The notes beneath the pieces were generated by a model. The model was not told the origin of the DNA, made no database searches, and was given only the letters and a program-made list of their open reading frames with translations. A DNA stretch of 42,786 nt, from IMG/VR virus record IMGVR_UViG_3300032092_000070, positions 1-42,786 of that record, one strand, 5' to 3'. Source of the DNA: a virus. Made by a program: the position numbers and the translations under genes. Of this stretch, positions 1 to 42,786 are shown one piece after another (positions within the stretch are counted from its first letter, which is position 1; each line of letters opens with the position of its first letter).

Positions 1-174
1 CACTATAGACAAGGTATCCATATCCTTTGCCTTGATGCTCTGGAGTAACTTCGGATTTTTCAATAGACACCTCATCTCCAAATCTTTCAAATCGAATGTT
101 TGCAACGACCTCTCCTTGTTTATCTCTTAAAGTAAGACCCTCTTGACCCATCCCTCCCTTGATTTCACCATAAA
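1..174. repeat. Left copy of the terminal repeat (circularisation overlap)
   Basis: Bases 1-174 match 42613-42786 in the same orientation except at 128 (t, versus c at 42740) and 170 (a, versus c at 42782). The first difference is silent (both Leu codons on the minus strand). The second changes a Tyr codon here to a TAG stop in the right copy. The simplest reading is the overlap of a circular or circularly permuted genome, giving a unit of about 42,612 bp. The mismatches lie near a contig end and may be population variants or end errors. A genuine duplication of the GNAT-coding segment is the alternative. Confidence 0.85.
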
Positions 175-3100
175 ATAATTTAAGTCCTTTCTTAAGGTGT
201 GGAACTTCTTCTGACCATCTTCCGATGAACTCTCCGTTCTTTTGCTTTTTAGTATAGGTTCTACCGCCTTCTGCTGGCTGATAGCGGGCTTTTGGGTCGA
301 GTTCATTATATACTCCAACGCCTTTAGATGGATAAACAGACTGAAGAGCCTGTATCTTCTTTGCGGCATCTTCTATAAACGCTGGTTTATTGTTTCCCTT
401 GTAGTATGTTTGACCAATGACTGTGTTGCGAACTTGCACAGGAACCCCTTCCTTATTTACAATAGTTCCATCAACATACTTTATCCCCATAGAGCGAAGA
501 CGCTCAGCCATTTCGCTGTAAAGGACGTTAGCCAACTTCTGACCTCTGAACTTAGGGTCTATATTAGAAGAAAGTTCAGCAACACCTTCTCCTGCAACTA
601 CAGACGATTCGTCAATCATAGCCGTGATTTGTCCGACCTTCTGGGTTTTACCAGAATTATCTGTCATCGTGATTCTATACGAACCATCTTTACGCTTAAC
701 AAACTGTATGTTCTTGTCCTTGATTTTGTCTTGGTTTTCTTCAGCCCATTTGCCGATGAACCCAAACTTAAATTGATTGCTGTTTTGGTCATAGACTCTG
801 CCTCCTCCAGCATCACCCTCTGATGGCTGGTGGCGAAGACCAAGTTCCTTTCCGTATCTGACCTTGTTTCCGTTGGCATCATTACCTCTAGGAACTCCTT
901 GCTCATCGAAGGTAGTATCAAGAGTCATAATCTTGCTGTCCATATGGTTCTTGAAGACTACATAAATATTGTCAAACTTACCTCCATCACGCATATTGCG
1001 GAAGATAACGCCATCGTGACCAGCATCCATCGCTGGCTTCATAATGTCCTTTAAGTGATATTCGCTGTAGTCTTTTCTTCCTTCAACAACCAAGGGATTG
1101 TCCATACGGATAGCCGCACGAAGTTCCATCGGTACATTTTTAAATTCGTTCTTTATTCTCTCACTATTTGCATCAATTGAATTTCTTACGCCTTCATAAT
1201 GAGGACTCCAAGCATCCTTCATTTCTCCAGAAATTTCAAATGCACCAGCATCAAAACCGATGTCTTTTCTTAACATATCAAGCATAGTAAAGTTTGATGA
1301 GATAATCTTTGCCATACTGTATCCGAGACCACCTCCTTCTTTTTCAGCCTCATATACTGACAGTTTAGGAGCATTGGTTTTCTTGTCTTTTCCAATACCA
1401 GCAAACATTTCAAGGCTAGAAGAAGAGCCGTATTCAAACACATCACGCAAGATTTCTCTCCTTACTTGTCTTAATGCTGTCCTTAATGCTCTTCCCTTTC
1501 CAACTTCATTATCTTTTTGGTTTGCAGTATACTCTTTAAGTTCAGACAATGTCTTCCCAGTATAAGAGAGAACTGTATCTTCAATCTTTTTCGTTACTTC
1601 TTCGCTTCTGAAATTTAATCCAGTAACTTGCATAAATACATACTCAAGTGCTGTATCTATAGCATAACCATCTTTTGTTTTTATAAAGAACTTCTTAGAT
1701 GCATCATATGCTGTCCCTCTTTCATTGACAATTAACATCGTCAATATTTCATCAAGGGTCATTTCTGTATGGAATCTTAAAGCATCAAATGCGTCTTTAA
1801 ATTCTTTAGAATGTCTTTGTGCCAAGTCTTCAAGAGTTATTCCACCAGAAGATGTTTTCTTGGAATATGTAACTGATGTTGATTGTTGACCAGCAAAGAA
1901 CACTCCATTTTGTGATGAGAAAATTGCGTGTTTAGAGCCAAGTTTATCTTGTCTAAAATCACGCCCTAACATCAAGTCCACACTACTAGTCCCGTGCGTA
2001 GCGATAGTAACAAACGGAACTCCAGTCTGGAATTGCTGATTGTATTCGTCAGAGTATATAGAAGAAATTACCTCTGGAAGACCAGTAGTGCTGTCGTTTT
2101 TATAAGACTCAATATGTTTTTTTGCAAAACGATTCAACTCATTGATTCCTATTTCACTAAGTTTAGGAACTTGTCCGTTAATTAATTGCTGTTTCCATTC
2201 GCCCTCAGCGTATGTTGAAAGAAATGTTTGTAACAGAGTTAACTGTTGTCTTGCAATTCTGTCTTCTGTGACAGAGAAGATGTCTGGGTCAGCCGCATTT
2301 TTTTCTTTTAATGCAGTTTTAAAAATTTGAGTCAATTGCTCACCTCTTTCCGTATATTCTTTTGCTGAAATTTCTCCTCTTCTATACGCTAAAGAATTAA
2401 GAGCGGATGCCTCCTCAGTCTCTTGTTTTATTCTTTCAAAATTAGCAAGAACTTGGTCGTATCTAGAAACATTGTTATAATGTTGAGCCAGCAATTCTAG
2501 ATTTTTTTGAAGCAATCTTTGGTAGAAAGCATCTGAGCCTTCGACCATCTCTACCTCTGCCTTATCAAGAACATACTCTTCTCTTGATTGCCTAATGATG
2601 TTCTCGATTCCACTTATGAAAGCCCGCATCTGAGGCACTCCAAACACATCCCCGTCTCTGATAGCCATATCACGCTGGCTACGCTCAAGGACTTGGAACA
2701 TAGCACCACGCTTCACCTGCTCAGAGGTTGTCTTGTTGATGGATTCAATGATGCCAGCCGTGTTGCTTTCTTTATGTTTCTTAGCCGCTTCTGAAGCCTT
2801 ATAGATGTCGTCGTATGAGCCAATTCTGTTTCCGTTTTCGTCAAAAGCGTGAACCTTTCCGTTACGCTCCGTGAATCTATAACCAAGAGGGTGGCTAATG
2901 ATTGACCCATTTGGAGTTTGCTCCCTGCTCATTTCAGACGGCTGGAAATTTCTAGACAAGTCTCTGAAGGCATTCTGAGGAACCACATCCCAGCGACTAC
3001 CAGAAGAGACTCGCATATTAGAAATGCCGTCCACGTTGAAGGTAGTAACGCTGTGTCTGATGCCGTATGGAATCTCAGCAATAGGTTTGTTAAGATAGGT

Positions 3101-6100
3101 TTCTCCATCTGCCTTAACTATACCGAGCATTTGGTGCAGAACATTTCTACGCATCGCACCCTTGCCTGTGCCATCTTCCAATAAGATTGAAGACTCAACT
3201 CTGGTCTTATCGGATGAAGCCTTAGAAGCGTTGCTGAGGTATCTGAAGAAGTCAGCCTCCATTGCCGCTCTGTCGTTGTTCCAGAGTTGACGAATGGCTG
3301 AATCGCTCCACAGGACATCCGCTCTGCCGTCAATAACAGCCTTATCAAGCGTGTGGAACAGGGCGTACATCTTGCCGTCCTTGCCGACCTTGAAGTCAAC
3401 ATCCAGAAGTACAGCCGCACGATTCTTGAACGGAACATCTGAACCAACGAGACGAGGCCATGCATAATCTCCTATTTGTGCCGTGCGACCAAGATAGCCA
3501 AAGTTGATTACATTAGAGCCATTGCCGTCTAAGATATTGTAGGCGTTCTGAATCTTGTCCACCCAAGCCCTATCGATGAGTCCAGACTGAACCATAGCCT
3601 CCATCGCTTCTGGTGACAGACGACCAGACAAATTACCTTCGCCATCAACAACAAGTCCTTGTCGATACTTTGGGTCGAGTCCAGAAAGAATCTTGTAGAT
3701 TTCCTTTCCGATACGAACTTGTTCTTGGACGACCTTACGCTGAGGAGAGCGAACTAGGTTGCCATTGGAGTCTCTAGTAACCGAAAGTCCACGGATTCCG
3801 TTGTTGCGGATAAATGTTTCTCTAGCCTCTGGAGACAGGCGACCAATATCAAAACTGCCCTGTCTATTCGCCATAGCCGTAGCCCTAACGAAGTCCCGCA
3901 TAAACAGGTCAAGAGCCTTGTTCTTCGTTCTGATGCCGTCCTTTTCAAACGCTTGGAAGATGTACTTGTTTGTAGCAGGGTCGAAGTTAAAGTCTGGATT
4001 GATGCCCTTTATCTTAGAACGCCAGAAGTCAAGGAAGCCCTGCTTGGCATTGCCCATAATTTCACGCATAGCACCAAGTTCGCCACCTCTAAACAAGAAG
4101 TCTACTGGCTTGTCATTGATAAACGCACCAAAGTAATAGGAGCCAAATTCCTCAAGAAGACCCTCAAGCGTATCCCTTGTGTCCAAGGAAATCTTGTTGG
4201 TAGAGCCTCTTGACTCATACTCCTTCATTGCCATCTCAAGACGCTGGGCTTCGTTTTTTGCTTCTGGGCTATTCTTGCCGTGCAAGGCATCAATATAACG
4301 CTGGAAGAACTGCTTTACTTGAGATGAACTGACGGAGGGCTTCTCAATCATCTTTCCGTTTGCATCGAACTTACCAAGCAAGTTTTGACCAAGTCTGTCG
4401 ATGAAGTCTGGCTTCATAACAGAATCCATCATAATAGCGTGGAATAGTTCGTGCGGTGCTGTTTCTTTGCCGAACTGGTTAAGGTTTATGTGGATTTCAA
4501 CCTGTCCAGTTGAGTCTCTTCTGAAGACGAATCCCTTGGCATTATTGTACTGTTTAGATGTCATCTCGACATCCTTAAGCCTAGACGGACGCATATTGCC
4601 GTCCTTGTCAAAATAACCTTCTGTAGCCAACTTATCCTTAAGCAACTTTCCACGCTCGCTGAGTTGTCCATTGACAGTCTCGTCCTTAAGGAACTGACGA
4701 ATCATCTCGTTTGCTCTGGTCTTGTTTCCAGAATCAAACATAGCATTCACACGGGCTACATTAGCCTCAGCATAGTTTAAGTTTCCATAGAACTCGTACG
4801 CCTTTTTTCCTCCGAAAATATTTTGAAGTTCTGGCGTGTTAGCCTTATCTATAGCCAAGAAAACGGCTTGCTTCTGTTCAGCACTAAGTCTGAAGAACTG
4901 CTTACGCATAGCGTGGTCTTGCGGAAGACCCTGCATATACGCTATTAACTTTTTGCTGTCGCCATCAAATCTATTTCCAAGCGTTGATAGGAACGAGAGA
5001 GCCTTTGCTCTTTCCGCTCTATTTGCACCAAAGTCTGGAAATAACGCCAAAGGTTCAATGAGACGACCAGTTGTAGGGTCTATTTTTTGGCTTAACAGCC
5101 AAGCCATATGCTCAACTTCACTTCTAGCAACAAACTTTGCGTTTGGAGCCAACACATCAATTCCAGTAATAATGCCGTCAACTTGGGCGATTAAATCCCT
5201 GTTGCCAGATAACTCAGCGGTCTTGGCGAAAGCCTCAAACGCAGAAGCCTTATCTGGGTCAATCTTCTTGAGAGCCTCAATGACTAGATTACGCTGAACA
5301 GCAATTCTGTCGTATAATCTAGCGTTGCCAACATCAGCAACAACAGCACCAAGTCCAGCACCAACAGTACCTAAGGCAAGACCAGCACCAGCACCGCTAG
5401 CCGCACCTTCTTCTCCAGCGGAAAGGTAACCAAGACCAGCACCGATAGCCATACCTTCGCCAGCACCTTTAGCCAAGTCAGCGGAATAAACGAACAATGG
5501 GTCAACCTTATCTAAGACATTAAGAAGAGCCCTAGCGTGTTTAGAAAGCGGAACTCCAGCCTTGTCAGCATCACGCAGAGCCTGTCCAGCATACGACAAA
5601 ACGCCCCGCCCTTGTGCAGATTGTTTGCTAATCTGCTCTCCAATCATCGACAGAGTTTCGCCAACTCCTCTGGCTGTTGTAGAGCCAACCATAGCCCCAG
5701 CGATGTTACCAACAAGAGGCAATCCAACAGTTCGTCCCTCAAGAGCCGCTGAAGCGGAATACCATCCATACATCTGAGCCGTTGTTCTGGCTTCAGCCGC
5801 TGGCATCCCAGTTACAGTTTCAAATGCCGTGCCAGCCTTTTCTAATCCAAAGTCAATTGTGTTTCTTGTGGCAGTACCCAAGAACTCAATAGGGGCTCCA
5901 ACGCCCCACTTGATAGCACCACCCAGAACCTTACGCTGAATTTCTGAGGCTCTAGCAGAAGCCTTTGCTAAGCCCTCTCCCATTCCAACAAGTCTAGCAC
6001 CTTTAGCGGCAATATTACCAAAAGGCACAAACAATGTAGGGTCTGCAATATAGGACATAACCTGCGTCATCTCTGGGTTGATGATATCCTTATCCATCAG

Positions 6101-6679
6101 TATTGTATCCTGCCCAGTAGCAAGACGCATAGAATGCACATTGAACGCTTGTGCATCCATAAACTGCTGGAACTCTGCTTGCTCATCATCTCCGTTGGCT
6201 GAAAGGGCATTCTTAACTCTGAAGAAAACGCTAGTAGGGTCTTGCGACTGAGCCGCCATACCATACAAACTTCTAGTTCCCTGTGTAAAAGCCTCGATTA
6301 ACGATGGTGTAAATTTAGCCAAAGCACCAGTAGGGTCATCAGCAATTGACCCACCAGCCTTCATAATCTCGTCAAACACAGCACCAGCGGCTTGACCCAT
6401 AGTATCGATAATATCCGTTTCCTTGTTTTTTATGTGAGCCTTGTATAACCGATACTGGTCAAGATTCATATTGAACACTTCACCTTTTGCGTTCTTTTCC
6501 TGCATCGCCCTGTAGATATCATCCCCAGTTGGGGCGGCTGTTATCTGCTGTCTAGCCGCCTCACGCTCCTCTGGTGGCAACTCTGCCAGCAAAGCCTCCA
6601 ACTCGCCATCAACCCCTTCGGTTGGCTGTGCAGTTGGTAATTTAGCGTATATCTTTTTTTGGTCGTATAGTTCAGCCAT
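1..6679 (-). CDS. Giant polyvalent ejection protein, N-terminal 2,226 residues (continues across the join into 39701-42786)
   Basis: The frame is open from ATG at 6679 to the left window edge and rejoins the frame at 42612-39701, giving about 3,196 residues if circular. Visible parts: a Gly/Ala-rich hydrophobic stretch near residues 406-449, possibly membrane-inserting; a zincin metallopeptidase motif HELFH at residues 743-747 (4439-4453); an ADP-ribosyltransferase-like domain, with HGT at about 1562 and a late GHDGVIF strand near 1880; and a GNAT-like domain with an FRGQKLA loop near 2040, followed by a second GNAT-like domain at the join. Short [FHY]QP[AS]E linkers recur near 1243, 1948 and 2135. 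Mixed effector modules of this kind define the phage 'polyvalent proteins'. The start overlaps the upstream stop (TAATG). Its place after two internal-virion-type genes matches T7 gp16, so it is probably packaged and ejected with the DNA. That role is inferred. Confidence 0.85.
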   Translation of the reverse strand, partial: MAELYDQKKIYAKLPTAQPTEGVDGELEALLAELPPEEREAARQQITAAPTGDDIYRAMQEKNAKGEVFNMNLDQYRLYKAHIKNKETDIIDTMGQAAGAVFDEIMKAGGSIADDPTGALAKFTPSLIEAFTQGTRSLYGMAAQSQDPTSVFFRVKNALSANGDDEQAEFQQFMDAQAFNVHSMRLATGQDTILMDKDIINPEMTQVMSYIADPTLFVPFGNIAAKGARLVGMGEGLAKASARASEIQRKVLGGAIKWGVGAPIEFLGTATRNTIDFGLEKAGTAFETVTGMPAAEARTTAQMYGWYSASAALEGRTVGLPLVGNIAGAMVGSTTARGVGETLSMIGEQISKQSAQGRGVLSYAGQALRDADKAGVPLSKHARALLNVLDKVDPLFVYSADLAKGAGEGMAIGAGLGYLSAGEEGAASGAGAGLALGTVGAGLGAVVADVGNARLYDRIAVQRNLVIEALKKIDPDKASAFEAFAKTAELSGNRDLIAQVDGIITGIDVLAPNAKFVARSEVEHMAWLLSQKIDPTTGRLIEPLALFPDFGANRAERAKALSFLSTLGNRFDGDSKKLIAYMQGLPQDHAMRKQFFRLSAEQKQAVFLAIDKANTPELQNIFGGKKAYEFYGNLNYAEANVARVNAMFDSGNKTRANEMIRQFLKDETVNGQLSERGKLLKDKLATEGYFDKDGNMRPSRLKDVEMTSKQYNNAKGFVFRRDSTGQVEIHINLNQFGKETAPHELFHAIMMDSVMKPDFIDRLGQNLLGKFDANGKMIEKPSVSSSQVKQFFQRYIDALHGKNSPEAKNEAQRLEMAMKEYESRGSTNKISLDTRDTLEGLLEEFGSYYFGAFINDKPVDFLFRGGELGAMREIMGNAKQGFLDFWRSKIKGINPDFNFDPATNKYIFQAFEKDGIRTKNKALDLFMRDFVRATAMANRQGSFDIGRLSPEARETFIRNNGIRGLSVTRDSNGNLVRSPQRKVVQEQVRIGKEIYKILSGLDPKYRQGLVVDGEGNLSGRLSPEAMEAMVQSGLIDRAWVDKIQNAYNILDGNGSNVINFGYLGRTAQIGDYAWPRLVGSDVPFKNRAAVLLDVDFKVGKDGKMYALFHTLDKAVIDGRADVLWSDSAIRQLWNNDRAAMEADFFRYLSNASKASSDKTRVESSILLEDGTGKGAMRRNVLHQMLGIVKADGETYLNKPIAEIPYGIRHSVTTFNVDGISNMRVSSGSRWDVVPQNAFRDLSRNFQPSEMSREQTPNGSIISHPLGYRFTERNGKVHAFDENGNRIGSYDDIYKASEAAKKHKESNTAGIIESINKTTSEQVKRGAMFQVLERSQRDMAIRDGDVFGVPQMRAFISGIENIIRQSREEYVLDKAEVEMVEGSDAFYQRLLQKNLELLAQHYNNVSRYDQVLANFERIKQETEEASALNSLAYRRGEISAKEYTERGEQLTQIFKTALKEKNAADPDIFSVTEDRIARQQLTLLQTFLSTYAEGEWKQQLINGQVPKLSEIGINELNRFAKKHIESYKNDSTTGLPEVISSIYSDEYNQQFQTGVPFVTIATHGTSSVDLMLGRDFRQDKLGSKHAIFSSQNGVFFAGQQSTSVTYSKKTSSGGITLEDLAQRHSKEFKDAFDALRFHTEMTLDEILTMLIVNERGTAYDASKKFFIKTKDGYAIDTALEYVFMQVTGLNFRSEEVTKKIEDTVLSYTGKTLSELKEYTANQKDNEVGKGRALRTALRQVRREILRDVFEYGSSSSLEMFAGIGKDKKTNAPKLSVYEAEKEGGGLGYSMAKIISSNFTMLDMLRKDIGFDAGAFEISGEMKDAWSPHYEGVRNSIDANSERIKNEFKNVPMELRAAIRMDNPLVVEGRKDYSEYHLKDIMKPAMDAGHDGVIFRNMRDGGKFDNIYVVFKNHMDSKIMTLDTTFDEQGVPRGNDANGNKVRYGKELGLRHQPSEGDAGGGRVYDQNSNQFKFGFIGKWAEENQDKIKDKNIQFVKRKDGSYRITMTDNSGKTQKVGQITAMIDESSVVAGEGVAELSSNIDPKFRGQKLANVLYSEMAERLRSMGIKYVDGTIVNKEGVPVQVRNTVIGQTYYKGNNKPAFIEDAAKKIQALQSVYPSKGVGVYNELDPKARYQPAEGGRTYTKKQKNGEFIGRWSEEVPHLKKGLKLFYGEIKGGMGQEGLTLRDKQGEVVANIRFERFGDEVSIEKSEVTPEHQGKGYGYLVYS

Positions 6680-22467: not shown

Positions 22468-22488
22468 CCATATCAAATTTTTTTACAG

Positions 22489-22561
22489 TAGGGATGGAGG
22501 GAATCGAACCCTCGACTTAGCCCTTATAAAGAGCCCACTCTGACCGCTGAGTTACACCCCC
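22489..22561 (-). tRNA. tRNA-Ile (UAU)
   Basis: Full cloverleaf: a 7-bp acceptor (GGGGGTG with CATCCCT, two wobble pairs), an ACTC/GAGT D stem, an anticodon loop TTTATAA giving UAU, and a T arm with GGTTCGATTCC. It decodes AUA. It is the last tRNA of the cluster in transcription order. Confidence 0.92.
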
Positions 22562-22570
22562 CTGTCAAAA

Positions 22571-22643
22571 TACGGCAAGCGGGGGTCGAACCCGCAACAT
22601 CCAGTTTGGAAAACTGACACTCTGCCAATTGAGTTACTGCCGT
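22571..22643 (-). tRNA. tRNA-Gly (UCC)
   Basis: Acceptor ACGGCAG with TTGCCGT, D stem ACTC/GAGT, anticodon loop TTTCCAA (UCC), T arm GGGTTCGACCC. It decodes GGA. Confidence 0.92.
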
Positions 22644-22661
22644 GAAAGAACTGTTAAAGTA

Positions 22662-22742
22662 TGCGGAAGGCGGGACTTGAACCCGCAAGCCTTTGGGCAA
22701 CTGATTTTAAGTCAGTCGTGTATACCATTTCACCACATCCGC
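22662..22742 (-). tRNA. tRNA-Leu (UAA)
   Basis: Anticodon loop CTTAAAA in a 5-bp stem ACTGA/TCAGT gives UAA (TTA codons), with the long variable arm expected of a leucine tRNA. Acceptor GCGGATG/CTTCCGC has one mismatch. Confidence 0.92.
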
Positions 22743-22748
22743 TAAGAT

Positions 22749-22821
22749 TGGAACCGACTGGACTTGAACCAGCAACCAACCGCTTAAAAGGCGGCTACTC
22801 TGACCATTGAGTTACGATTCC
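22749..22821 (-). tRNA. tRNA-Lys (UUU)
   Basis: Acceptor GGAATCG/CGGTTCC, anticodon loop CTTTTAA (UUU) on a GCCGC/GCGGT stem, T arm GGTTCAAGTCC. It decodes AAA. Confidence 0.92.
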
Positions 22822-22828
22822 TAAAGGG

Positions 22829-22899
22829 TGGAGGCGGGGAGAATCGAACTCCCATTGCCCCGATGCAAACGGGGTTTCCTGCCATTGAAAGAAGCCCCC
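22829..22899 (-). tRNA. tRNA-Ala (UGC)
   Basis: Anticodon loop TTTGCAT in a strong CCCCG/CGGGG stem gives UGC (GCA codons). Acceptor GGGGGCT with CGCCTCC has one mismatch at the inner pair, and the D stem has three pairs. It starts one base from tRNA-Gln. Confidence 0.88.
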
Positions 22900-22900
22900 A

Positions 22901-22971
22901 TAGACCCGCAGGGAGTCGAACCCCGACAGAGAGAACCAAAATCTCTAGTGCTACCATTACACCACGGGTCT
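22901..22971 (-). tRNA. tRNA-Gln (UUG)
   Basis: Perfect acceptor AGACCCG/CGGGTCT, anticodon loop TTTTGGT in stem AGAGA/TCTCT gives UUG (CAA codons), T arm GGTTCGACTCC. Confidence 0.92.
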
Positions 22972-22977
22972 GTGAAA

Positions 22978-23049
22978 TCACCGAGACAGGACTTGAACCT
23001 GCAATCCCCTGCTCCCAAAGCAGGTGCGATGCCATTACGCTACTCGATG
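22978..23049 (-). tRNA. tRNA-Pro (UGG)
   Basis: Acceptor CATCGAG/CTCGGTG, anticodon loop TTTGGGA in stem CCTGC/GCAGG gives UGG (CCA codons), T arm GGTTCAAGTCC. Confidence 0.92.
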
Positions 23050-23054
23050 TACAA

Positions 23055-23126
23055 TCGACCCACTAGGAATCGAACCTAGATAACCCGCTTAGAAGGCGGG
23101 TGTTCTATCCGTTGAACTATGGGTCG
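23055..23126 (-). tRNA. tRNA-Arg (UCU)
   Basis: Perfect acceptor CGACCCA/TGGGTCG, anticodon loop CTTCTAA in stem CCCGC/GCGGG gives UCU (AGA codons). Confidence 0.92.
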
Positions 23127-23131
23127 TAAAG

Positions 23132-23216
23132 TAGAGGGGGTCGGATTTGAACCCACGAGGCTTTTACACCTAACAGTTTTCAAGACTGCCGCAATAGACC
23201 ACTCTGCCACCCCTCT
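23132..23216 (-). tRNA. tRNA-Ser (UGA)
   Basis: Acceptor AGAGGGG/CCCCTCT, anticodon loop CTTGAAA gives UGA (TCA codons), with the long variable arm typical of serine tRNAs. Confidence 0.9.
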
Positions 23217-23220
23217 AAAT

Positions 23221-23477
23221 GATGCCGTTCCTTCGTCTTATTCAGGTCTGTTCTTCGTTAGGTTGATATGGACGCACTAGCGGCATCCAAGGTACTTATG
23301 GCTTGATATCAAAGCCAACCGCTATCCTTGCATCGTCTCTGCATACCTACGGCATCGAGCCGCAAGCCTGTTCAGCCGTTACATACTGTATGCTTCATAG
23401 ACTTTGCTTTATTATCCTCCATAGAAGCCGTAGGACTGACACCTACTTTCGGAGTAATTACCTCCACGGCTTAGTTG
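23221..23477 (-). ncRNA. Structured non-coding stretch inside the tRNA cluster
   Basis: No gene, but many stems, several closed by exactly 7-nt loops: AAGCCGT/ACGGCTT (23425-23431, 23466-23472) encloses GTAGG/CCTAC and GGAG/CTCC. GGCTT/AAGCC lies at 23300-23316, inside AGGTA/TACCT (23290-23294, 23344-23348). GATGCCG/CGGCATC (23221-23227, 23281-23287) competes with GGACGC/GCATCC. Transcription with the tRNA operon seems likely. It lacks the conserved marks of tmRNA, RNase P RNA or a group I intron that I could look for by eye. It may be a new small RNA, or the remains of several decayed tRNAs. Confidence 0.45.
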
Positions 23478-23593
23478 GTGGGTGTGTGGGATTTGAACCG
23501 CACAGTCATAACTTATATATAATCTGGACACATACATTAGGCATTTACTCCTGTATATATTCGTTATGCCTAGCCACATTAGGCTAGCACCCA
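23478..23593 (-). pseudogene. Interrupted tRNA-like element
   Basis: The minus strand has a 5' acceptor TGGGTGC pairing with ACACCCA (6 of 7), a D arm GCCT/AGGC with a GG-containing loop, and a T arm with loop TTCAAAT in which one stem side has a bulged C, followed by CCA. The anticodon stem ATAAC/GTTAT is separated by about 50 bases instead of 7; part of that insert pairs as ATATATA/TATATAT. A 9-base repeat GCCTAATGT occurs in the D arm and again in the insert, suggesting duplication. It may be a dead tRNA or a tRNA needing processing. Confidence 0.45.
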
Positions 23594-23598
23594 AATGG

Positions 23599-23670
23599 AG
23601 CCTTGTGTTGGGATTGAACCAACGACCTACTGTTTACAAAACAGTCGCACTACCGCTGTGCTAACAAGGC
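23599..23670 (-). tRNA. tRNA-Thr (UGU)
   Basis: Perfect acceptor GCCTTGT/ACAAGGC, anticodon loop TTTGTAA in stem ACTGT/ACAGT gives UGU (ACA codons). First tRNA of the cluster in transcription order, 21 bases after the promoter candidate. Confidence 0.92.
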
Positions 23671-38479: not shown

Positions 38480-39394
38480 TTACTTTATAAAGAATCTAGA
38501 AATCTTTGAAAAGAAAGACCCATCATCTTGAGATGCTGGTTGAGGATTTGGATTACTTGCTGGCACATCTGGCTTTAACTGAGTATGACTGTATTCTGGA
38601 TAGTTATCTTTAATTGCTAAAGTTCTTAAAAACTGACGATGTTTATCAAGTTCTCTTCCTGTTAATGACTGTGGTTGATTTATATAATCCAATGTTGCTA
38701 GTTTGTTGTCAAACTCAACAGGTGGCAATGATGTATTCTCTCTTATGAACTGTTGTCTTAACGGGTTGCCTACCCCCCAAGGATTATAAGGATTTGAAAC
38801 TTGAAGGAATATAGGATAAGTAGGGTCTATTGTTTGAGCGTCATAAGCCTTTCCTGCCAACAACATTGCTCTTGAAGGTTGAAATGATTGATTGCCTTCG
38901 GCTGTAAACTGTGGTTTATAGTTCCACGATTCATATTCTTTTTTAGCATTTTCATTATAAGACCTAGATGCCAAGTCTCTTAATGATTCGTAATTTGTGG
39001 GTTTAAGAAGGTTAAATCTACCAGCAAGCAAGAAATTTCTATCAACAGGGCTAATTTCATCTATTGTTTTTATTCTCTTTTCATTTGAACCAAGACGAGA
39101 ATTGTAATCTTTTACTAATGCTTCATCTAAGTTGTCTTCATCATCAAACAATAAATTGTCTGGTATCCCGCTTCTAAATATAAGAGGGTCACTGTCAAGA
39201 ACCCTACCTATAACAAGGTCTTCGTAATATTCTTTTGCCCTGTCCTCTACTATGTGAGGGTTCGCTGTGTAATATTGAATTCCTCTATATGAATCTCTGT
39301 ATTTTTGTACTAAATCAGAAAGTTCTGGAACTTGCCATTCGTGTTCTTTGTCACGAAATGTAATTGGACTTGGTTTCTTTTTTTCTTCAGCCAT
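38480..39394 (-). CDS. Unknown late protein, 304 aa
   Basis: Contains FQPSRAMLLAGKAYD and TYPIFLQVSNPYNPW near residues 175-215, a strand-and-NP pattern that also appears in ADP-ribosyltransferase-like modules of polyvalent proteins, plus the QPS linker seen in the giant protein. It ends in a Pro-rich segment and FFSKISRFFIK. It may be a relative of one of the giant protein's modules; evidence is weak. Confidence 0.6.
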   Translation of the reverse strand: MAEEKKKPSPITFRDKEHEWQVPELSDLVQKYRDSYRGIQYYTANPHIVEDRAKEYYEDLVIGRVLDSDPLIFRSGIPDNLLFDDEDNLDEALVKDYNSRLGSNEKRIKTIDEISPVDRNFLLAGRFNLLKPTNYESLRDLASRSYNENAKKEYESWNYKPQFTAEGNQSFQPSRAMLLAGKAYDAQTIDPTYPIFLQVSNPYNPWGVGNPLRQQFIRENTSLPPVEFDNKLATLDYINQPQSLTGRELDKHRQFLRTLAIKDNYPEYSHTQLKPDVPASNPNPQPASQDDGSFFSKISRFFIK

Positions 39395-39395
39395 A

Positions 39396-39704
39396 TTATT
39401 CTTTTACTGTTTTGATAAATTTTTTTCTGATGATGTCAAACAATTCTGGAGCAATGCTACCAGCGACAGCAATGATTACGCTACGATACAGCGGAGCGAT
39501 GTCAGCCTCGTATAGTCCAAAGTAGCACAGCACACCAACGATACCGCCAGCGATAGCCTTCCTAGTCCAGATAGCCCAGACGAACTTCTCGTTGGTCAGT
39601 ATCAGACGGGCAATCATCCCAAGCATTCCTAGGATAGCCATCACCCAGCCAGTCCGCTTGAACTCCTCCACGACAGACTGGAGGGTTGGGTCATCGACAT
39701 TCAT
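39396..39704 (-). CDS. Holin-like membrane protein, 102 aa
   Basis: A helical N-terminus (residues 1-18), then three hydrophobic stretches (WVMAILGMLGMIARLIL, AIAGGIVGVLCYFGLY and SVIIAVAGSIAPELFDII) and a short basic tail, typical of holins of the LydA/class I type. The start overlaps the giant gene's stop (ATGA). Next to unknown and spanin-like genes, it would form a lysis cassette with the early endolysin. Confidence 0.75.
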   Translation of the reverse strand: MNVDDPTLQSVVEEFKRTGWVMAILGMLGMIARLILTNEKFVWAIWTRKAIAGGIVGVLCYFGLYEADIAPLYRSVIIAVAGSIAPELFDIIRKKFIKTVKE

Positions 39705-42700
39705 CGCTTAGGCTCCTCACGCTGGACTCTACGCTTAGCCTGTTCCTCGCTGTCGAAGACCCCGATGACAGCCTTGTACGGATTGTACACCCTGTACTTG
39801 CTACCAATCCTAGAGATGACGAAGCCAGCAGAGTTCTTGATGAGCGAGCCAGCAGTTGTCTGCTCAGCCTTCCAGTCTCTGAAGCCTTCAGCGGGTTGCC
39901 ACTTAAGACGCTCTTTGCCTTCTGGAATCAATGACGCTTCCTTTACATATCCGTAGGCTTCTCCGACTTGATTGCTACCAAGTTTTGTAGCACCTCCCTT
40001 TCTTGGTACTTCCTTCTTTTCCTTATTCAAGAATACATCAGTAACGTGGTTTGTCTTATCTGGAATAAGCATCCTAGGTCTAATCTTATTTCCATTTTCA
40101 TCACGCTGGACGATATGCCAAGGGTAACTCTTATGTCCATTCTCGGTCTTCTCAACCGATATCTTTCCTGTTACCTCGATATAAGCATAGACATAACTAG
40201 GGTCAACATTAGCCCTCTTGTCCGAAAGCATTAGACCAATAGCCTCACGAATACCAGTAGGTGCAAACTGAATCTTTTTCCCAAGCCTGTCAGCACCAAG
40301 GGCGTTTGAAATCTTTTCTATGTTCTTATGTCCAGACTCTCCATTTTCCGCAAGATGAGTGATGACATCCTTTACGAAATCTCCTCTTCTTTCAAATGTA
40401 GAATCAGAGACACCAAAAAACTTGCTGGCAATTTCAGCCTGTATAGCCTTCGCTGATTGAGTAGCGTTGAATTCTATTCCGTACTTTCTTCCAGAATCCT
40501 TGAGTGCATTTCTGAATTCCTCAAGGCTGATATAGCCTTGCTCAACAAAGTACTCAAGTATTCCCATTCCAGCCTTAGCACCTGTATGCGAGTTCAGAGC
40601 GTTCTCAAATGAGCCTCTTGTAAGCGAAAGATATGCAACTCCTCCGTTTTCTTTTTGTGCTTTCTCTAGATTTCTTGCTGTTGTTCTAGCCTTGGATTCC
40701 TTTGAGTTAGCCCAGATATCTCCGAACTTCGATACAAAGTTAAGACCTCCTTCTCCTTCGGCAAGAATTCTGCCGCTAGGAGTCTCAAGAGTACCAGTCA
40801 TCATTGTGTCTGGATTGTTGATTACGACAGCCTTTCCAGCCAACTCACGCTCATCAAATCCAAGCACGATATGACCAGAGTCAACCAACCGCTTGTTTAA
40901 TTCAGATTTTTCAAATCCATTCTGAACAAGAGCGGCATCTCTTTCCGCTGGCTGGAAGTTATATCTAGTATCCGTCTTTGAAAAGTCTCCGTAATTGCTA
41001 GAGGCTTTAACGCTGGCTGTTTCTTGAGGAATTACAATAGTTGGAGATTTTCTGCTAACAGAGTTATCTTGTATAACAATACTGTCGTATCCTTTTCTTA
41101 ATAGGTGTTCGTGGAAATCAATCCAGTTATCCATTCTCCAAGATTCACCAAACGGCTTAAGCATTGTTTGCTCCTTCTTCGGGCTCAACCAATTGCCAGT
41201 TGCTATCTCAAGCAAGAATCTATCAATGGATGTTCTTGGGTCTAATACATCGTGACCTTGTTCCTTGATGTTCTTGTTCCAGAACTCTTTTATAGCCTCA
41301 AACAGTTTAGGATTGGCTTGTTCCAACTTGTGTGCGGAAAGAAGATTTGCAGGGTTTTTGCTCTTAACATAATACATATCAGCGTTGCCTCTGCTAGCAA
41401 CCTTTTGTGCGTCTTCATTGAGACCGCTGATATCAGTGTGACCGCCTCCAGCATATCTCTTAGCCGCAGATTCATCGGCAATAAAGAAGTTCGGGTCTGT
41501 CGTTAATGAACGCTCATTTCTATCAACTACACTTCTTTCTGAAAACCTATCAAAAGAGCGGACATTAACTCCTTTGTAAACAGTAGTGACAAAACCCTTG
41601 TCGTAATTTGAAGCCTTATTAGAGTCTTCTTCGCTTCCAATAAACTTAAGTCTTTCTGCCCAACTTCTAAAGTTTTTAGTATCTGGATATCTCCATAATT
41701 CTCTTGGTTGATTTTCTCTTGCTTTAATTGCCCTCGCTGTATTCCAGTCAGTTTCGCCTTCCGCTGGCTGGAACTTAACAGGCAAGTTGTCCCTAGAACC
41801 ATAACCTAATTGTTTTTTAAGTTCCGAGTTTGCTCCAAAATAAAACGCATCAACATCTTCTGGGTTAACGCCAAGTTTCTTTGCTATCTTGTTCTTGTAT
41901 TCATACACTTCGCTCATACTGCTGAAGTGGTCAGAGTATCTAGAAGTTATGCTAAACTTGCCACGCTCTAATAATTTTCCTTTAGAATCATATCTTGGCT
42001 TTTCATATCTTCCATAGACTGGGGGCTTATCTTCGTCGTACTGATATGTCTCCATCCATTCGCTATGCGTATAGCCTGTGTTATCAGAGGTTGACGCTGG
42101 ATTCTTAGTAAGAATTCCCTTGTTAATGTCATCAACCCAAAGTCCAGAATTTTCAATTTCCCATCTGTTTAACTCTTTGGTTTTTCTAATTTGTGGATAA
42201 TGACCAATGTCAGTCCAGTCTAGATTATAATCTGCTGGATTGCTTAAATATCCTCTGGCATTCTTATCTCCAGTAATCTCGTCATTGCCAACAAATGGTC
42301 TACGAACAAGGAGACCTTCTTGGTCTTTGTATTCAAAGATATTTTTCTTGGGCTTCCAATAGTCGTCCCCGCCTTGGTATTCGGAAGGTTGGTAGCGGGC
42401 TTTTTGATGCAGATAAGACTCTACATCTATTTGTTTATTTCCTTCTTGGTCGAGTCTTTTATCTAGTATTTCAGTTCTTGAATCTTTCTCTCCTATTCTA
42501 AGATTCTCAACATCGATAAGACGCTTTCTAATCTTTATTGGTCTTTCGGCATTGTCGATTACCATTCCAGAAACAGTCTTAACGCCTTCGCTTCTCAGCC
42601 TTTCAAGCAATTCACTATAGACAAGGTATCCATATCCTTTGCCTTGATGCTCTGGAGTAACTTCGGATTTTTCAATAGACACCTCATCTCCAAATCTTTC

Positions 42701-42786
42701 AAATCGAATGTTTGCAACGACCTCTCCTTGTTTATCTCTCAAAGTAAGACCCTCTTGACCCATCCCTCCCTTGATTTCACCCTAAA
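39701..42786 (-). CDS. Giant polyvalent protein, C-terminal part (full residues about 2177-3196 from ATG-equivalent 42763)
   Basis: Within the right-edge repeat the frame carries a TAG at 42782-42784 (Tyr in the left copy), so as written the frame opens at ATG 42763 and encodes 1,020 residues. In the circular reading it is the tail of the 3,196-aa protein that starts at 6679. Local residues: GNAT-like loop PEHQGKGYG at about 30-45; an ART-like domain opening with VYKGV near 390 and closing with YDSIVIQD near 560; an unassigned polyvalent module around 610-930; and repeated QP[AS]E linkers near 120, 330, 602 and 955. The product ends at the holin overlap. Codons are A/T-rich. Confidence 0.85.
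42613..42786. repeat. Right copy of the terminal repeat (circularisation overlap)
   Basis: Matches bases 1-174 with two differences (see the left copy). The difference at 42782 makes a TAG in the frame of the giant gene only in this copy; all four sequence bases after it are at the window edge. Confidence 0.85.

Follow-up and report, generated by a model that had tools for sequence, protein, structure and literature searches.

A lineage-specific motif at the module seams of a giant phage polyvalent-type protein as a candidate site for a co-inherited reader

The giant polyvalent-type protein of this phage carries a short motif, [FYWH]QP[AS]E, between its modules, and each phage lineage uses one word of the form aromatic-z-y-x-[ED] at nearly all of its seams, imported modules included. 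We read this seam motif, with middling confidence and from sequence comparison, as a short linear recognition site placed in flexible seams of a protein that is probably carried in the virion and injected, and recognized by a factor inherited with the giant protein. The likeliest reader would be the zincin-like domain of the conserved N-terminal core, which would cut at the motif and so free the effector modules, either while still in the head or once injected, with modules being traded between phages as cassettes whose ends would have to be recoded to the dialect of the host protein.

The window is the whole stretch of DNA analysed, 42,786 bases long, and its first and last 174 bases (1-174 and 42613-42786) are identical at 172 of 174 positions, so that the genome is closed or end-repeated, with a size of ~42,612 bases, and its two long open reading frames are one gene. 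A contig from a separate sample (L009) spans the joint of the window ends uninterrupted at 100% identity. The giant gene lies on the minus strand, as do all of its own features located below by window position, and joins the frames 2-6679 and 39701-42763 into about 3196 codons. Its N-terminal part (residues 1-2226; 1..6679) is an open frame contiguous in L009 with the C-terminal part (to residue 3196 and the stop; 39701..42786), in which 42613-42786 repeats 1-174. The record is not labelled circular although its ends overlap, and gene callers will therefore split the giant gene and start the second piece at an internal methionine of the protein, the ATG at 42763. The phage encodes an SU10-type major capsid protein (PF17236, E 2e-46), and matches to terminase and other virion proteins in the window are weak. 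Lying on the same strand as the SU10-type capsid and structural genes and downstream of them, the giant gene stands among virion genes, as expected of a polyvalent protein, and a holin gene adjoins it. Ten tRNA genes are clustered at 22488-23670 of this ~43-kb genome.

The strict motif [FHYW]QP[AS]E occurs seven times in the giant protein: FQPSE closing the conserved core (motif 1, residue 1245; 2933..2947), HQPSE (motif 2, 1950; 818..832), YQPAE (motif 3, 2133; 269..283), YQPSE (motif 4, 2300; 42380..42394), FQPAE (motif 5, 2507; 41759..41773), FQPAE (motif 6, 2779; 40943..40957) and WQPAE (motif 7, 3131; 39887..39901). All seven copies claimed in the original prediction, spread over both parts of the protein, were thus verified, and the interval given for them there, 39701-42763, holds four, the other three lying in the N-terminal part at 2-6679. 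An eighth, degenerate copy, FQVLE (motif 1b, residue 1328; 2684..2698), aligns with FQPLE, FKPLS and FSPRE in relatives, and the protein holds 8 matches to a loose form of the motif, whereas 300 residue shuffles averaged 0.15 and never exceeded 2. NQPRE at residue 2527, 20 residues past motif 5, is probably due to chance and could be a motif remnant. No other open reading frame of the window contains [FYWH]QP[AS]E, and this speaks for a reader whose only target is the giant protein. The related FQPS that had been predicted in the neighbouring 304-residue protein (38480-39394; matched by neither Pfam nor PHROGs, and unmatched in the records of four relatives) reads FQPSR and is missing the acidic residue; because of this misfit and the absence of the motif from the other frames, the match is probably chance and we rejected it as a further copy.

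The giant protein has a core followed by a series of modules. The core carries HELFH (residues 743-747; 4439..4453), a zincin-like active-site motif, and EEFG (843-846; 4142..4153), which is conserved in all complete cores and is a candidate third zinc ligand. Between motifs 1 and 1b, an AlphaFold2 model places a small beta domain and long helix (1250-1327; 2699..2932), and in the core model (mean pLDDT 68) motif 1 is coil preceding this well-predicted beta domain and motif 1b is coil behind its long helix. Two GNAT modules follow, the first (1955-2132; 284..817) matching Pfam PF00583 and the second (from 2138, with 2138-2227 in the first part; 1..268, continuing at 42612-42395) matching PF14542/PF00583, and both matching PDB GNAT folds; in a model of this tandem (mean pLDDT 77) its three motifs, motifs 3 and 4 among them, coincide with low-confidence linkers between folded GNATs. 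The remaining modules comprise a GGDDYW module (2305-2506; 41774..42379), found by alignment to be common to the QP, SP and KP lineages described below, one at 2512-2778 (40958..41758) bounded by motifs, and one at 2784-3130 (39902..40942) that is 96% identical to its counterpart in the relative L011, whose upstream module differs; none of these three has an assigned fold. Last comes a C-terminal domain of ~61 residues (39704..39886), which alignment and a scan revealed to be common to 55 viral loci and which could mark this class of protein; by eye it looks like the small beta domain that follows the core. With two GNATs recognized by Pfam and by fold, a zincin signature and further modules, the protein holds the two or more disparate effector domains that define polyvalent proteins.

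Searching 50,697 phage genomes returned zero records matching the core, the C-terminal part or the GGDD module, and a query with the ART module matched only weakly related Helicobacter cinaedi phages there, while contigs from viral metagenomes do match the giant protein. These relatives, at 33-80% identity, have the core in common and differ in their module sets, which include ART-PolyVal-type modules. When the regions beyond the core were compared all against all as protein, homology blocks started within 5 residues of a motif in 30% of cases versus 3.5% at random positions (the highest of 200 trials being 6.0%), and ended that close in 23% versus 3.4% at random. The boundary peaks are sharp, at -1 to +1, with ends piling on the acidic residue; a shared motif lets blocks extend to it, which sharpens such a peak and cannot create a boundary. 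DNA breakpoints likewise coincide with the motif, often to the nucleotide, such that the block of 96% DNA identity with L011 starts 2 nt into motif 6, with unlike modules upstream, and a block of 89% DNA identity between L019 and L022 extends from one motif to the next. The original prediction had placed the motif at module boundaries, to be checked by its conservation there in homologues, and because homology blocks and DNA breakpoints fall on the motifs, that placement is strongly supported. The protein thus has a repeated conserved site between modules, as polyproteins do.

The first seam is orthologous in all relatives, reading RN-[FWYM]-z-y-x-[ED]-M, where z-y is QP, SP, KP, MP, KV or HI depending on the lineage and QP in the window phage, and the words at the seams take the forms QPxE (window phage), SPxD, KPxE, MPxE and KVxD. 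In 30 giant proteins taken together, the word of a protein's own first seam recurs in 125 downstream copies, against 30 copies with another word; 10,000 label permutations gave a mean of 36 and a maximum of 71 own-word copies, and 3 would be expected from residue shuffles. Near-identical contigs were removed from this count, but relatives sharing a dialect are still not independent of one another, which makes the tree important; the tree of cores requires at least seven changes of dialect, with QP, MP, SP and KP needing two each, and some of its long branches make the exact placement of these changes unsure. The dialects are impure, with QP copies in MP phages and FMPAE in one QP phage, and in L164, of the HI lineage, a downstream repeat was looked for and none was seen. 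Of 98 hand-listed seams in 14 QP, SP and KP proteins, 87 start with F, Y or W, 91 have proline as their third residue and 94 end in an acidic residue, figures that are descriptive rather than a test since a pattern helped to choose the positions. A rigid proline spacer between domains, with no reader, would suit a motif lying between folded domains, proline being common in linkers, and yet it leaves unexplained the fixed aromatic and acidic residues and the single z-y word per lineage, and proline is missing from the KV-dialect seams; we consider it a very improbable account.

Related modules with protein identity of up to 77% are present in phages of differing dialect, and their ends carry the host word: the ART module of L010 and L011 is 72-77% identical to that of L026, and ART modules end in DIRFQPTE (L010), DIRYQPAE (L011), DIRYKPVE (L026) and DIRYSPAN (L023). 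The GGDD module ends in NLPVKFQPAE, TLAIKFKPTE or KLPVKFSPAD according to dialect, and a GNAT-type module ends in FKDRHYQPSE (L017) and FSDRHYSPAD (L013). In L010, a QP phage, YQPTEG directly precedes FKPREEVV, at a place that in KP phages holds only [AF]KPRE, such that residues 2293-2305 of its protein run from a QP site into a KP-type site, YQPTEGFKPREE; the FKPRE is apparently a fossil of the site of a KP-dialect donor, left beside a new host-type site.

These exchanges also bear on whether the motif is a recombination seam in the DNA only, where brief stretches of DNA in common at the ends of modules would direct the exchange of cassettes, each lineage retaining its own seam by descent. 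Breakpoints that meet the motif to the nucleotide are what this predicts, the motif copies of one protein resemble each other in codon choice a little beyond expectation (311 of 592, with 274 expected; p 0.016), and the left ART seam of L011 resembles a crossover within the motif, with TACCAG before and CCTAGGGAA after the joint. Most synonymous sites vary, however, and what is conserved are amino-acid features, the aromatic and the [ED], built from unlike codons; cross-dialect exchanges moreover keep the host dialect on both sides of a module, an arrangement that random crossovers would often break. As synonymous codons are only weakly homogenised, selection acts mainly on the peptide, and with its codons varying the pure DNA seam is disfavoured and in our judgement improbable.

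Because the word is uniform within a protein, specific to a lineage, changed in concert over 5-8 seams and imposed on imports, we infer that its reader is co-inherited with the protein. The candidate reader is the zincin-like domain, since the zincin-like signature, an invariant HExxH with a downstream EEF, is present in every complete core examined, across all dialects, in line with the HExxH and later Glu on a second helix by which zincin-like metallopeptidases are recognized. Substitutions specific to the KP lineage are densest around HExxH (hypergeometric p 0.002; scan-corrected p 0.21), a clustering that is only suggestive of covariation with dialect. The zincin region is poorly predicted in the model, a structure search with it found no PDB match, and a profile comparison of the core with the zincin of phage N4 was likewise unmatched. 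As a specific cutter of the motif, the zincin is plausible.

The main rival to cleavage is that the seams are docking tags and not cut sites, bound by a core domain, the portal, the scaffold or an internal virion protein for packing or for threading through the tail, with the tag co-evolving with its partner. The dialect evidence suits any cognate reader, the motifs stand in exposed linkers, and the virion RNA polymerase (vRNAP) of N4, which is likewise giant, ejected and equipped with a zincin, is packaged unprocessed and remains whole (PMC5512222). It also has no repeated motif, so a zincin need not cut. Docking nevertheless leaves the exact position between modules and the motif-free N-terminus unexplained, and no partner protein was found; we think it rather unlikely. 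The original prediction had left the choice between cleavage site and docking tag open, and of its claims the recognition role at the protein level is well supported by the dialects while the link to the 304-residue neighbour is not.

Returning to cleavage by the embedded zincin, we tentatively propose that the linkers act as a password: effector modules would be freely swapped, each seam being rewritten to the dialect of the peptidase embedded in the host protein, and peptidase and 5-8 seams would change together, in a code that may be general. Less related phage polyvalent proteins with an ART module carry repeats of their own, RFSRAD-like in L048 (five copies), RYSVSGD-like in L044 (three) and R[FY]S[DN]R[DE], of the RYSDRD type, in L037 (four), and in L048 and L044 these copies stand ~8 residues behind Pfam ART domains. 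Such [RK][FY]S-type repeats suggest that the code reaches beyond this family. An ART-PolyVal search of 391 genomes of one bacterial class matched 19, and in the 10 regions read only some proteins repeat [RK][FY]S, so we treat generality beyond the giant-protein family as a lead only. Since 2017 the cutting of polyvalent phage proteins into their parts, and its location, has stood as a prediction only, and the seam code supplies exact predicted sites, with the five dialects as a built-in control for specificity. With the code, module boundaries can also be read from nothing but the sequence in proteins largely devoid of domain annotation.

Among known systems, the polyproteins of eukaryotic RNA viruses offer an analogy (partly drawn in PMC5512222) in their repeated cleavage-site sequences between modules and their embedded, co-evolving protease, whereas their peptidase is of another type, their domains are unrelated and cleavage of the giant protein is only proposed. 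N4 vRNAP is similarly a giant virion protein, of ~3500 residues, with an HExxH domain and flexible linkers and is ejected into the cell (PMC12633501), and differs in having no repeated seam motif and a core that is unrelated by profile comparison. DdrB of phage P1 shares a zincin-type domain in a polyvalent protein and is proteolytically processed before packaging (PMC5512222). The closest likeness is to the phage polyvalent proteins of Iyer et al. 2017, a class already known together with its predicted processing by an embedded zincin, which are multi-domain, carry an HExxH zincin-like domain and GNAT/ART-type modules and are strongly mosaic (PMC5512222). The main text of that study never mentions linkers, and the open-licence papers searched yielded no description of a seam motif specific to a lineage; the repeated seam motif with its dialects is what the giant protein described here adds to the class.
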